From a virus, in IMG/VR virus record IMGVR_UViG_3300009105_000020, positions 1 through 29,517 of that record: a stretch of 29,517 bases of DNA; one strand, written 5' to 3'. Below are positions 9,586 through 12,980 of the stretch, piece after piece. Made by a program: the position numbers and the translations under genes. A model generated the notes under the pieces. It was not told where the DNA came from. It was given only the letters and a program-made list of their open reading frames with translations, and made no database searches. Positions within the stretch are counted from its first letter, which is position 1, and each line of letters opens with the position of its first letter.

Positions 9586-9848
9586 TGAATCCCCCTAAAA
9601 ACCCGACTAAGAACAGCGAACTCGAAATGATGGTAAGAGAGACTCACGATACAGTAGTCACTCTAAACACCGCTATACTCGGAGTGCCGGGCACTCAAGA
9701 CAAAGGGCTTTGCGGTAAGGTGGATGGACAAGGCAGAGAGATTTACTCCCTTAAAAAGCATTTCTGGATTCTAGTCGGCTTCCTGGTCGGCTTAGGGGTG
9801 GTATCTGGTGGAGCTTATGGATTGATGGAGGTATTAAAGACTTCTTAA
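9585..9848 (+). CDS. XhlA-like membrane protein, holin or holin partner
   Basis: 87 residues, overlapping the previous stop (TAATG). A polar N-terminal helix region (SELEMMVRETHDTVVTLNTA) is followed by a Gly-rich turn and one C-terminal membrane helix at about residues 60-82 (FWILVGFLVGLGVVSGGAYG). This is the layout of XhlA/haemolysin-type lysis proteins. No endolysin gene follows; the nearest candidate is the NlpC/P60-like protein at 19593. Confidence 0.55.
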   Translation: MNPPKNPTKNSELEMMVRETHDTVVTLNTAILGVPGTQDKGLCGKVDGQGREIYSLKKHFWILVGFLVGLGVVSGGAYGLMEVLKTS

Positions 9849-9966: not shown

Positions 9967-10005
9967 TCCTAGACTTACACACCTTACAGGTCTAGGACTT
10001 ATTTT
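9967..10005 (+). terminator. Intrinsic terminator of the late operon, interrupted by the transposon
   Basis: TCCTAGAC (9967-9974) pairs perfectly with GTCTAGGA (9990-9997), followed by CTTATTTT. Before insertion of the IS1595 element the T-rich tract would have continued as CTTATTTTATCTATTTATTG. The target duplication is exactly this T-run, so both flanks of the element still carry it. Confidence 0.65.
9998..10005 (+). repeat. Left target-site duplication CTTATTTT
   Basis: Identical to 12675-12682, the 8 bases right after the right inverted repeat. IS1595-family elements are known to make 8-bp duplications. Confidence 0.9.
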
Positions 10006-10029
10006 GGTAACTATATACTTGCGTGACCC
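10006..10029 (+). repeat. Left terminal inverted repeat
   Basis: Begins GGTAACTATATAC and ends TGACCC. It matches the reverse complement of 12651-12674 at 13 outer and 6 inner bases, with mismatches only in the 5-base middle. It also contains the -35 box of the element's promoter. Confidence 0.9.
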
Positions 10030-10047
10030 ACTATAATGTGGTATAAT
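10019..10047 (+). promoter_or_regulatory. Promoter of the transposase/R-M operon with overlapping inverted repeat
   Basis: TTGCGT (10019-10024), 17-base spacer, TATAAT (10042-10047). The -35 lies inside the left inverted repeat. An inverted repeat CACTAT (10029-10034) and ATAGTG (10046-10051) spans the -10, a possible operator. GGGAG at 10063 serves the transposase ATG. Confidence 0.65.
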
Positions 10048-10075
10048 AGTGATATAGAAAGTAGGGAGTAAGAAA

Positions 10076-11002
10076 ATGTTACCACAATTTGTATCACTAA
10101 CAGATATGCTAAAGAGATTTCCTGATGAACGATCCTGCGTTGATTACCTTACTGAAATACGTTGGCGAGAGGGTTCCTTTTGCCCTTACTGCGGTAGTCA
10201 GAAAGTATATCATTTCAAGGATAACAAAAATCACAAATGCGGAGTATGCCGCAAGCGGTTTAGTATTAAAGTAGGAACGATTTTTGAGGATACAAAAATA
10301 CCTCTACAGAAGTGGTTTATTGCTATCTATTTTCTTACTTGTCACAAGAAGGGAATATCATCGGTTCAACTAAGTAAAGATCTCGGTGTTACACAGAAAA
10401 CGGCTTGGTTTATCGCTCATCGTCTCCGAGAAGCTACGAAAACAAAGGCTTTCAATGCCCCTCTTAAGCACTCTGTAGAGGTTGATGAAACCTTAATCGG
10501 GGGCAAGGAAAAGAATAAGCACGTTTGTAAAAGAGTAGCTGGTACTCAAGGCCGTAGCACTAAAACCAAAACAACCGCAGTAGTAATACTTCAGCGTGGT
10601 GGTGAACTAAGAGCATTTCAGACGCTAGATACTAATAGCCACACTTTAAAAGGTTTATTGCATAATAACGTAGCATTAGGAACGAAAATATACACAGATG
10701 AGTACCGTGCCTATAAAGGCTTGGAGACATTTTATCTTCATAGCAGTGTAAATCATATTAACGGACAGTATGTAAACGGAGACGCCCATACTAATACCGC
10801 AGAGGGCTTTTTCTCTTTATTAAAACGTGGAATTATTGGCATCTATCATTTCACCAGTAAAAAGCACCTGCAAAGGTATCTAAATGAGTTCTCTTTCAGG
10901 TATAATCTAAGGAACGATGATAATGGTATGGGCTTTACATCATTACTTTGCAACTGCGGACGCAGATTAACATACAAAGGATTGATAGCCAATGAAGCAT
11001 AA
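10076..11002 (+). CDS. IS1595-family transposase
   Basis: 308 residues, the full length for the family. An N-terminal zinc ribbon has C36, C39, C55 and C58 (SFCPYCG, KCGVC). A helix-turn-helix follows at about residues 94-118 (ISSVQLSKDLGVTQKTAWFI). The DDE-type catalytic core has D137 (VEVDETLIGGK), D208 (IYTDEYRAYKG) and the H238-TNTAEGFFSLLKR block with E243. It cuts and joins the element ends with 8-bp target duplication. All key residues are present, so it may be active. ATG chosen with GGGAG 9 bases upstream. Confidence 0.95.
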   Translation: MLPQFVSLTDMLKRFPDERSCVDYLTEIRWREGSFCPYCGSQKVYHFKDNKNHKCGVCRKRFSIKVGTIFEDTKIPLQKWFIAIYFLTCHKKGISSVQLSKDLGVTQKTAWFIAHRLREATKTKAFNAPLKHSVEVDETLIGGKEKNKHVCKRVAGTQGRSTKTKTTAVVILQRGGELRAFQTLDTNSHTLKGLLHNNVALGTKIYTDEYRAYKGLETFYLHSSVNHINGQYVNGDAHTNTAEGFFSLLKRGIIGIYHFTSKKHLQRYLNEFSFRYNLRNDDNGMGFTSLLCNCGRRLTYKGLIANEA

Positions 11003-11915
11003 GCCAGCATCAGAAAAACTCTTTACTTTGCCTATGCCCTTTGAGGAAGCAGTTGAGCGTTTCTCTAGGGTTAATACAAAGGAAACAGAGGCAGAACCCA
11101 CAGAAAAAAACGGGGCTTGTCCATTTGTAAAATGGGCGGGTGGTAAAAGGGCTATTATAGGCGATCTTGTTAGATTGCTACCAACTGATTTTAAGGATTA
11201 CTACGAACCCTTTGCTGGTGGTGCGGCTCTCTTTTATGAAATCTATTCACGAATGGATAAGGCTTATATATCCGATAGTAATTTAGAACTGATAATGACC
11301 TATGCCGTAGTAAAGAACGATCCATTAGCACTTATAGCAAAACTAGAAGAATACGATAAAAAGGATAGTGACGAGTATTACTATAAGGTTCGCTCGCAGC
11401 ATAATTTACAGGATGCGATAGATATTGCTGCTCGTTTCATTTACCTGAATAAAACTTGCTATAACGGCCTTTATAGGGTAAATAAAAAGGGTGAGTTTAA
11501 CGTACCCCGTGGACGTAATAATAATCCCGATATAATTCAGCGTAAAAATATCCTGGCGAGTAGTAAGGCACTTCTAAAAGCTGATATTAAATACCTTGAG
11601 TTTGATAAAATCCAGCCGAATAAGAATGACTTTGTTTATTGCGACCCACCTTATCATCCTGCTAGTATCAACGGATTTACTAAATATACTAAGTTAGATT
11701 TCTCGGAAAAAGACCAAGAACGATTAAGAGACTTTGCTTTGAAACTTCACAAGAAGGGCGTTAAGATAATGCTATCAAACTCTGATACAGCTTTTATCCG
11801 TAGTCTCTATATTCCTCCGGTTTGGAATGTTACAATTGTAGAAGCTCCCCGAATGGTGAACTGTAAATCAGAAGGTAGGGGTTCGGTTGACGAATTAGTA
11901 ATAAGGAATTACTAG
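10992..11915 (+). CDS. D12-class DNA N6-adenine methyltransferase (transposon-borne)
   Basis: 307 residues. It carries the Dam/D12 class motifs in order: WAGGKR (48-53, SAM binding), YYEPFAGGAAL (70-80), FIYLNKTCYNGLYRVNKKGE (149-168) with NVPRG, catalytic DPPY (218-221), LSNSD, and a VDELVIRNY end. It transfers a methyl group from SAM to N6 of adenine in its target. The first 40 residues are an extension beyond the catalytic domain. The start overlaps the transposase stop by 11 bp and its stop overlaps the GTG of the endonuclease, so all are co-translated. The recognition sequence cannot be read from sequence; the Dam/DpnII branch, which methylates GATC, is one possibility. Confidence 0.92.
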   Translation: MKHKPASEKLFTLPMPFEEAVERFSRVNTKETEAEPTEKNGACPFVKWAGGKRAIIGDLVRLLPTDFKDYYEPFAGGAALFYEIYSRMDKAYISDSNLELIMTYAVVKNDPLALIAKLEEYDKKDSDEYYYKVRSQHNLQDAIDIAARFIYLNKTCYNGLYRVNKKGEFNVPRGRNNNPDIIQRKNILASSKALLKADIKYLEFDKIQPNKNDFVYCDPPYHPASINGFTKYTKLDFSEKDQERLRDFALKLHKKGVKIMLSNSDTAFIRSLYIPPVWNVTIVEAPRMVNCKSEGRGSVDELVIRNY

Positions 11916-12385
11916 TGGCAATTAAACAGGGTGGCACTCAGGCTAATTATACTGGTACTGTACTTGAAAAATATATACTTTCTCGGCTTGAAGAAAGAGG
12001 TTACACTGGGTTACACCAAAGTCGCTTTAATCCTTCAAGATATTTGAAACAGCCGATTTACAGTAGACGTTATCACATAGGCTCAAGTATTTATGGCACT
12101 CCCCAATACTGCGATTTCATCATCTATCATCCTCAAAAATGGCCTGATAATCTTGTAATAGAATCAAAATGGCAACAATCCTCAGGTTCGGTAGACGAAA
12201 AGTATCCATATCTTGTCCTGAATATTCAAATGAACTATCAGAGTCCTACCATACTAGTCCTAGATGGCGGTGGATATAAAAAAGGGGCAGAAAAGTGGAT
12301 ACGTTCTCAGGCAGGAAACGGGAATTTGCTTCAGGTATTCAATATGCAACAATTTGCTACTTGGGTAAATAAAGGTAAATTATAA
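11915..12385 (+). CDS. Type II restriction endonuclease, PD-(D/E)XK fold
   Basis: 156 residues, GTG start overlapping the methyltransferase stop (TAGTG). The catalytic pattern is visible: E18 in the first helix (NYTGTVLEKYILSRLEERGY), D67 (QYCDFIIY) and E83-S-K85 (LVIESKWQQ), then SGSVDEKYPYLV, a pattern common in nucleases paired with methyltransferases. It is expected to cut DNA at the site protected by the adjacent methyltransferase. Its small size and all residues present suggest an intact enzyme. No control (C) protein gene is seen in the element. Confidence 0.85.
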   Translation: MAIKQGGTQANYTGTVLEKYILSRLEERGYTGLHQSRFNPSRYLKQPIYSRRYHIGSSIYGTPQYCDFIIYHPQKWPDNLVIESKWQQSSGSVDEKYPYLVLNIQMNYQSPTILVLDGGGYKKGAEKWIRSQAGNGNLLQVFNMQQFATWVNKGKL

Positions 12386-12396
12386 GGAGTCCTAAA

Positions 12397-12651
12397 ATGA
12401 TTTGTACTAATGAACACCGTTACTTACCTGATCTTGAAGACCTACCTGAAAGTCAAGCAGGGGAGGGAAGGCATAGATGTGCTGGTTGTGCATATGAACA
12501 AGGCTATGATGATGCCTTTGAAGGACGGGGGCGACATTTAAAAGCTGATTTATTAGATGAGAGCCAAGCTGGAACGGGCAGGCATAAAGATGTTCAATCT
12601 GCCTATGACTTGGGTCATTCTATTGGATCACAAAGACGAGGCCGAGGTTAG
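12397..12651 (+). CDS. Small two-repeat protein of the transposon
   Basis: 84 residues, with a good AAGGAG site. It consists of two tandem copies of a unit of about 37 residues: PESQAGEGRHRCAGCAYEQG then DESQAGTGRHKDVQSAYDLG, each ending in an R-rich turn (EGRGRH, QRRGRG). The first copy has a CAGC pair; the second has lost both Cys. I do not recognise a function. Its place after the endonuclease, inside the element, suggests it belongs with the restriction-modification system (accessory, immunity or specificity aid), but nothing proves that. The stop ends on the first base of the inverted repeat. Confidence 0.7.
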   Translation: MICTNEHRYLPDLEDLPESQAGEGRHRCAGCAYEQGYDDAFEGRGRHLKADLLDESQAGTGRHKDVQSAYDLGHSIGSQRRGRG

Positions 12652-12674
12652 GGTCAAATACGTATATAGTTACC
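12651..12674 (-). repeat. Right terminal inverted repeat
   Basis: The reverse complement starts GGTAACTATATAC and ends TGACCC, matching 10006-10029. It contains the palindrome ATACGTAT. Confidence 0.9.
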
Positions 12675-12682
12675 CTTATTTT
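12675..12682 (+). repeat. Right target-site duplication CTTATTTT
   Basis: Identical to 9998-10005 and directly abutting the right inverted repeat. Confidence 0.9.
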
Positions 12683-12703: not shown

Positions 12704-12732
12704 TTGACAACCACTAAGTGATATGTTATTAT
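12704..12732 (+). promoter_or_regulatory. Early promoter 1 with CACTAAGTG operator-like palindrome
   Basis: TTGACA (12704-12709), 17-base spacer, TATTAT (12727-12732). The spacer holds a perfect palindrome CACTAAGTG (12712-12720). The same layout recurs at 15200, 16368 and 21056. Confidence 0.75.
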
Positions 12733-12761: not shown

Positions 12762-12980
12762 ATGGCTAAAATGACAAGGCGGATGGTTGAGGCATCAATT
12801 AAACAAGGTTGGCAGCCCTATATATCCAGTCAATGGGTGGACTTTGTTACTCGTAGAACAGGAGCCAAAATCAAGTTTATTGACCACGAGTTTGAATATA
12901 AATGCTCACGAAAAACAGCTAGAGAACTAGTAAAGATGGCAGAGGTTTCAGTAACGCCGGATGAAGCTAGTCTATCCTAG
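12762..12980 (+). CDS. Hypothetical early protein, 72 aa
   Basis: 72 residues, the first gene after early promoter 1, with GGGAGG 7 bases before the ATG. Basic N-terminus (MAKMTRRMVEASIKQGWQPY), a central strand pair, and a C-terminal helix KTARELVKMAEV. It has no recognised domain. As the first early gene downstream of an operator-like site it could be a host-takeover or regulatory factor; this is position-based inference only. Confidence 0.65.
   Translation: MAKMTRRMVEASIKQGWQPYISSQWVDFVTRRTGAKIKFIDHEFEYKCSRKTARELVKMAEVSVTPDEASLS

Follow-up and report, generated by a model that had tools for sequence, protein, structure and literature searches.

An IS1595-family transposon with a predicted type II restriction-modification operon resides in a phage contig

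The window analysed here is the whole 29,517-nucleotide stretch of IMG/VR record IMGVR_UViG_3300009105_000020, a 29.5-kb viral contig that carries terminase, portal, major capsid and tail genes. Positions 10006-12674 of the window hold a complete IS1595-family transposon of 2669 bp. Four genes lie inside the element on the same strand and code for a transposase, a methyltransferase, a nuclease and an 84-aa protein. The features of the element and its borders are as follows.

9998-10005, no strand: left target duplication CTTATTTT, which is also the T-rich tail of the phage terminator-like hairpin
10006-10029, plus strand: left terminal inverted repeat GGTAACTATATACTTGCGTGACCC, with all 24 bases shared by the left end of L121, a sister element described below
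10019-10047, plus strand: candidate operon promoter, TTGCGT (within the inverted repeat), 17 bp, TATAAT; the L121 layout is alike; read from the sequence
10076-11002, plus strand: IS1595-family transposase with zinc ribbon and DDE domain, assigned by Pfam, NCBIfam and conserved residues
10992-11915, plus strand: Dam-type D12 adenine-N6 DNA methyltransferase, predicted target GATC
11915-12385, plus strand: PD-(D/E)XK (PDDEXK_11) nuclease, predicted restriction endonuclease, GTG start
12397-12651, plus strand: 84-aa repeat protein, phrog_3941, missing in two sister elements
12651-12674, minus strand: right terminal inverted repeat, which pairs with the left arm
12675-12682, no strand: right target duplication CTTATTTT, an exact copy
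12704-12732, plus strand: phage promoter-like site of the next operon, TTGACA-17-TATTAT (11/12), intact downstream of the insertion

The two terminal arms are identical at 20 of 24 positions, a level of matching that none of 200,000 shuffled versions of one arm attained, and the 8-bp target duplication is exact on both sides. Traits of the IS1595 family include short inverted ends that start with GG, an 8-bp target duplication, and a zinc-ribbon, ISXO2-like DDE transposase, all of which are present in this element. These results agree with the initial annotation, which had described 24-bp inverted ends, an exact duplication and a length of 2669 bp. This length is that of the element proper, and the interval 9998-12682 quoted with it takes in both duplications. 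An IS-flanked composite transposon was ruled out, given the presence of one transposase and a single pair of inverted ends.

The insertion occupies a gap between a phage gene that ends at 9848 and another that starts at 12762, and no phage gene is broken. A hairpin located upstream of the insertion folds at -12.3 kcal/mol and resembles an intrinsic terminator, and it is absent from the list produced by a consensus scan with a loop limit of 8. Within the element, the methyltransferase gene overlaps the transposase gene by 11 bp and the nuclease gene by 1 bp. Thus, these three genes look like one operon in which the methyltransferase is encoded ahead of the nuclease. The candidate promoter for this operon scores under the cut-off that the consensus scan applies.

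The transposase matches the Pfam model DDE_Tnp_IS1595 (E 1.1e-40) and a zinc ribbon model (E 5.2e-10), and scores 198.9 bits against the NCBIfam IS1595 model, for which the cut-off is 75. Residues D137, D208 and E243, along with the four cysteines C36, C39, C55 and C58, are invariant across three related elements.

The methyltransferase matches MethyltransfD12 (E 1.4e-57) and the Dam subfamily (270.7 bits), and is also recognized by the PADLOC model MTase_II (E 6.9e-86). Its FxKWxGGK and DPPY motifs are intact, the latter at residues 218-221. The closest chain in the PDB is M.DpnII (2dpm, E 4.7e-54), followed by E. coli Dam. Seven residues by which E. coli Dam recognizes GATC (K9, Y119, N120, L122, R124, P134 and R137) align with K47, Y157, N158, L160, R162, P172 and R175 of the phage-borne protein, such that 7/7 are kept. 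The predicted target of the methyltransferase is therefore GATC.

The nuclease matches PDDEXK_11 (E 5.7e-40), and its residues D67, E83 and K85 are invariant in seven sequences. A search of the PDB by sequence gave no convincing match to any solved chain, and a search of the nuclease against PADLOC gave no match. In a structure model built from 17 relatives (pLDDT 84.6), helices and strands follow one another as in PD-(D/E)XK enzymes, with D67 on the second long strand of the core and E83 and K85 on the third. An earlier model, based on 7 sequences, was poor (pLDDT 46), and the plasmid row was left out of the modelling alignment. Among solved structures, the model is most similar to that of the restriction enzyme BstEII (Z 10.6, rmsd 4.0 over 136 residues); other nucleases and restriction enzymes come next, with lower scores that are partly uninformative. 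GATC is predicted as the nuclease target from its partner methyltransferase.

Adjacent genes for a methyltransferase and a PDDEXK_11 nuclease, with no transposase alongside, also occur on an Alicyclobacillus plasmid and in Rickettsia endosymbionts, one Chloroflexi MAG, one unclassified MAG and two more genomes (loci L086, L088-L091, L122 and L123 among these hosts). Because the pair recurs in other bacteria without the transposase, the two proteins belong together, and by all sequence tests the pair is a type II restriction system. Single-sequence and pattern scans of IMG/VR turned up neither a close copy of the nuclease nor one of the exact ends. Nuclease searches among 349 genomes from the same phylum as the Rickettsia genome, and among 156 genomes from the order of genome G266, gave only members that were already known.

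The 84-aa protein contains an internal repeat and matches phrog_3941 (E 6.2e-25). We considered it as a core part of the element and rejected this role, as both sister elements lack the gene; the core unit is therefore transposase-methyltransferase-nuclease. On a Lactiplantibacillus plasmid (L241:807-3252), a relative of the 84-aa protein is encoded directly after a D12 methyltransferase, which is 44% identical to that of the window, and a 429-aa DUF6996/6997/7226 protein. This trio may represent a restriction system that includes a small third gene, and the neighbourhood hints at a link between the 84-aa protein and restriction systems. The other relatives that were examined have no annotated restriction genes adjoining.

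The domain searches and conserved residues thus bear out what the initial annotation had proposed for the proteins: an intact transposase with a zinc ribbon and D137/D208/E243, an overlapping D12 methyltransferase with DPPY, a PD-(D/E)XK nuclease with D67/E83/K85 and an 84-residue repeat protein. Its pairing of the methyltransferase with the nuclease is likewise upheld by the transposase-free pairs in other bacteria.

The element differs in composition from the phage that carries it. Its GC content is 0.39, versus 0.45 for the phage and a minimum of 42% among sampled body stretches of equal length. The phage body (1-9997 and 12683-29517) contains 12 GATC sites where 120 are expected, and other palindromes are also rare (GGCC 1, ACGT 3, CATG 0, CGCG 0), a strong avoidance of many 4-base palindromes. 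The avoidance of GATC extends to five phage relatives (L003, L009, L012, L013 and L016), and the hosts of the phage probably possess several restriction enzymes with 4-base sites. In contrast, the element contains 6 GATC, 4 GGCC and 9 ACGT sites, for a total of 19, whereas no sampled body stretch of equal length has more than 5. Because the phage body avoids GATC, GGCC and ACGT while the element does not, the element is, judged from its palindrome content, a recent arrival in the phage.

The description of the phage as lytic in type was not borne out; a scan covering part of the ORFs encountered no integrase or repressor among those. A check for phage relatives with an empty site had also been suggested, and none was revealed by a pattern search in IMG/VR; the tail and lysis regions of the relatives are too diverged or incomplete for the flanks to be aligned. 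A portal search among genomes from the order of G266 gave no indication of the phage host.

Two further complete elements, sisters of the one in the window, have the same ends and carry transposase, methyltransferase and nuclease genes in the same order. The first, found by an alignment-based scan for the nuclease, sits in a different viral contig of 75.9 kb (L096:4038-6469), in a neighbourhood that includes a DnaB-like helicase and other phage-family genes. Its transposase, methyltransferase and nuclease are 58%, 52% and 59% identical to those of the window, its ends are GGTAATTATATAC and GGTAACTATATAC, and it is flanked by an exact 8-bp duplication, ATTGTTTA. This element interrupts a gene for a NUMOD4-HNH homing-type endonuclease (L096:3622-6640). 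When the element and one duplication are removed by script, a 193-aa frame with NUMOD4 and HNH_3 halves is restored.

The second sister was found by genome search in a 2.07-Mb contig of a Chloroflexota-group chromosome, from the phylum of a Chloroflexi MAG (L121:5478-7878). The corresponding identities are 80%, 66% and 68%, and the exact 8-bp duplication is TTAAATTA. Here the element interrupts a retron-like RT-Toprim defence gene (L121:4006-8199), and the same scripted removal restores a frame of 594 aa, in which the first 490 match RT-Toprim proteins of retron-type defence. On the sequence record, the exact duplications and restored frames at these two loci are textbook signs of transposition.

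There are therefore three separate insertions with exact 8-bp duplications, two in phages and one in a bacterial chromosome, and insertion at three unrelated sites implies that the element has been active in transposition in the past. These independent copies support and strengthen the proposal that the phage carries a complete IS1595 transposon and that this transposon bears a methyltransferase-nuclease pair. A test of whether the restriction-modification cargoes of the three elements form one clade gave a p-AU of 0.106, with L096 lacking a firm placement, and the cargo may have been exchanged.

The insertions also bear on two explanations that would remove the transposon from the picture. 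Dam-type methyltransferases do occur in phages, and so the pair could be an ordinary phage moron that was already present in the phage, with coincidental ends. We consider this extremely improbable, since it is contradicted by the sister insertions: the ends match, the duplication is exact, the same unit is present at three unrelated sites and reading frames are restored at two of them. The base composition and palindrome content of the element are also unlike those of the phage. Alternatively, because the phage is represented here by one metagenomic IMG/VR contig, a bacterial transposon might have been misjoined to a phage contig during assembly. An exact 8-bp duplication on both sides fits a real insertion rather than a misjoin, and the two other elements have the same arrangement, which makes such a chimera only marginally more credible than the moron.

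Two other explanations place the benefit with the phage. The restriction system might be kept as a weapon that excludes co-infecting phages or degrades host DNA. Such roles have been proposed or reported for the GATC systems of chloroviruses and marseilleviruses (PMC7253447), the genes in the window are intact, and a phage body with 12 GATC sites would suffer little self-damage. However, the same module is present on a bacterial chromosome, the nuclease is missing from the phage relatives searched (partial contigs), and the recent insertion makes long selection in the phage unlikely. We therefore regard this role as improbable. A slightly better prospect, but still an unlikely one, is that the methyltransferase alone is useful because it shields phage DNA from hosts that cut GATC, and that the nuclease is dead weight. 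Phages commonly carry solitary methyltransferases (PMC4176335), and the avoidance of GATC in this phage and the five relatives named above indicates that their hosts probably cut this site. Yet a phage with almost no GATC would gain little from this protection, and the catalytic residues of the nuclease are kept in all three elements (window, L096 and L121).

The distribution of restriction cargo among related elements was assessed across 76 loci that encode related transposases, drawn from viral and plasmid loci and one sampled phylum, so the rates are not general. Matching ends and 8-bp duplications are present at 36 of these 76 loci, compared with 0 of 75 for shuffled flanks. All 36 elements are longer than 1.4 kb and therefore all have room for cargo. 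Besides the L096 element (L128 in the survey), six carry methyltransferase or restriction cargo. L183 has a methyltransferase and a known restriction nuclease, and L149 has the same genes (PADLOC REase_II, E 4.5e-44). L189 encodes a methyltransferase-Mrr fusion, and L195 and L230 encode methyltransferase-HNH fusions. Another element, with perfect 24-bp ends (L180:4699-9356), carries a single 996-aa HSDR_N-N6_Mtase-Methylase_S fusion. At L204, a methyltransferase is followed by an HNH-like stretch that lies in another frame after a C-run, as read by eye.

The restriction-carrying elements sit on at least three branches of the transposase tree that are apart from each other. Therefore, IS1595 transposons have probably acquired restriction cargo more than once. 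The presence of relatives in a phage and a bacterium, together with these unrelated cousins, suggests that the family repeatedly carries restriction systems between genomes.

Other cargo was also observed. Three IS1595 elements on viral contigs (L133:3201-7314, L132:3819-5927 and L135:2718-4819) carry genes for RhuM or P63C-domain proteins. Genome G134 holds two 2406-bp IS1595 elements (L207 and L208) that are alike in length, gene layout and terminal repeats, and that carry a 311-aa cargo gene without a PADLOC match. Their duplications differ (CACACTTG and GAAATAGA), and the family looks to have been recently active in this genome.

Lincomycin resistance or mobilisation functions are the passengers of the IS1595 elements tISCpe8 and MTnSag1. 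These elements resemble the one described here in having an IS1595 DDE transposase, inverted ends of about 25 bp, 8-bp duplications and passengers between the ends (PMC5704250), but they are not known to carry a restriction system or to reside in phages. Passenger-carrying IS1595 elements are thus already known (PMC5704250; PMC11891212), as are restriction genes on insertion sequences and transposons (PMC3031569; PMC4176335). In the latter group, PaeR7I moved by an IS, a transposon-like Rhizobium restriction-modification unit and the PluTI element likewise have transposed restriction genes, for which an addiction model has been put forward (PMC3031569). Those units are pairs between IS copies or are element-like, whereas the present element is one unit transposon with the transposase and the restriction-modification genes in one operon. 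The IS220 element of the IS1380 family is also a passenger-carrying IS with a methyltransferase, but its transposase is of another family and no nuclease is mentioned for it (PMC11891212).

With DpnII/MboI-type GATC systems, the element shares a methyltransferase that is closest to M.DpnII, but its nuclease is of the PDDEXK_11 type. The chlorovirus and marseillevirus systems similarly pair a virus-encoded methyltransferase and nuclease, with GATC being the predicted target here, but these are eukaryotic giant viruses and, in the excerpt of the source available, the systems are not described inside a transposon (PMC7253447). Complete restriction systems are rare in phages, with nine reported in 831 genomes (PMC4176335). 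Our survey of the literature, with ISfinder, REBASE and the founding IS1595 paper outside its scope, found no IS1595 unit transposon described as carrying a restriction system.

We consider it probable that the locus is a selfish passenger-carrying IS1595 transposon, or transporter IS, with a type II restriction-modification system of two genes, predicted for GATC, as its cargo, and that the phage is a recent vehicle. The roles offered by the initial annotation, a weapon against competing phages or an addiction module that keeps the element in phage populations, are hypotheses. The bacterial-chromosome copy and the other IS1595 lineages with other restriction systems suggest that restriction cargo is a trait of the transposon and not one peculiar to this phage. 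Under this transporter model, one promoter with its -35 region within the left end would drive the transposase-methyltransferase-nuclease operon. The methyltransferase would be made first and protect the carrier replicon, and the nuclease would then cut unmodified DNA in the same cell. A molecule carrying the element would be favoured over its rivals, and loss of the element would be penalised in bacterial cells. The phage would have taken the element into a neutral gap between the terminator-like hairpin of the late operon and the next promoter, where the scarcity of GATC would keep the cost to itself low. Benefits to the phage, such as protection against GATC-cutting hosts or exclusion of other phages, would be secondary.

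More tentatively, and with somewhat more doubt than belief, we raise the broader possibility that IS1595 transposons are a general, repeatedly assembled vehicle that moves restriction-modification systems between chromosomes and phages, with the cargo serving the transposon and phages offering a dispersal route. How restriction systems move between cells is debated, and a self-contained transposon with a restriction operon is a concrete and testable carrier, which here has left clean insertion scars in phages and a chromosome. A unit of 2.4-2.7 kb thereby offers a way to test whether, as has long been asked, restriction serves the cell or the mobile element.
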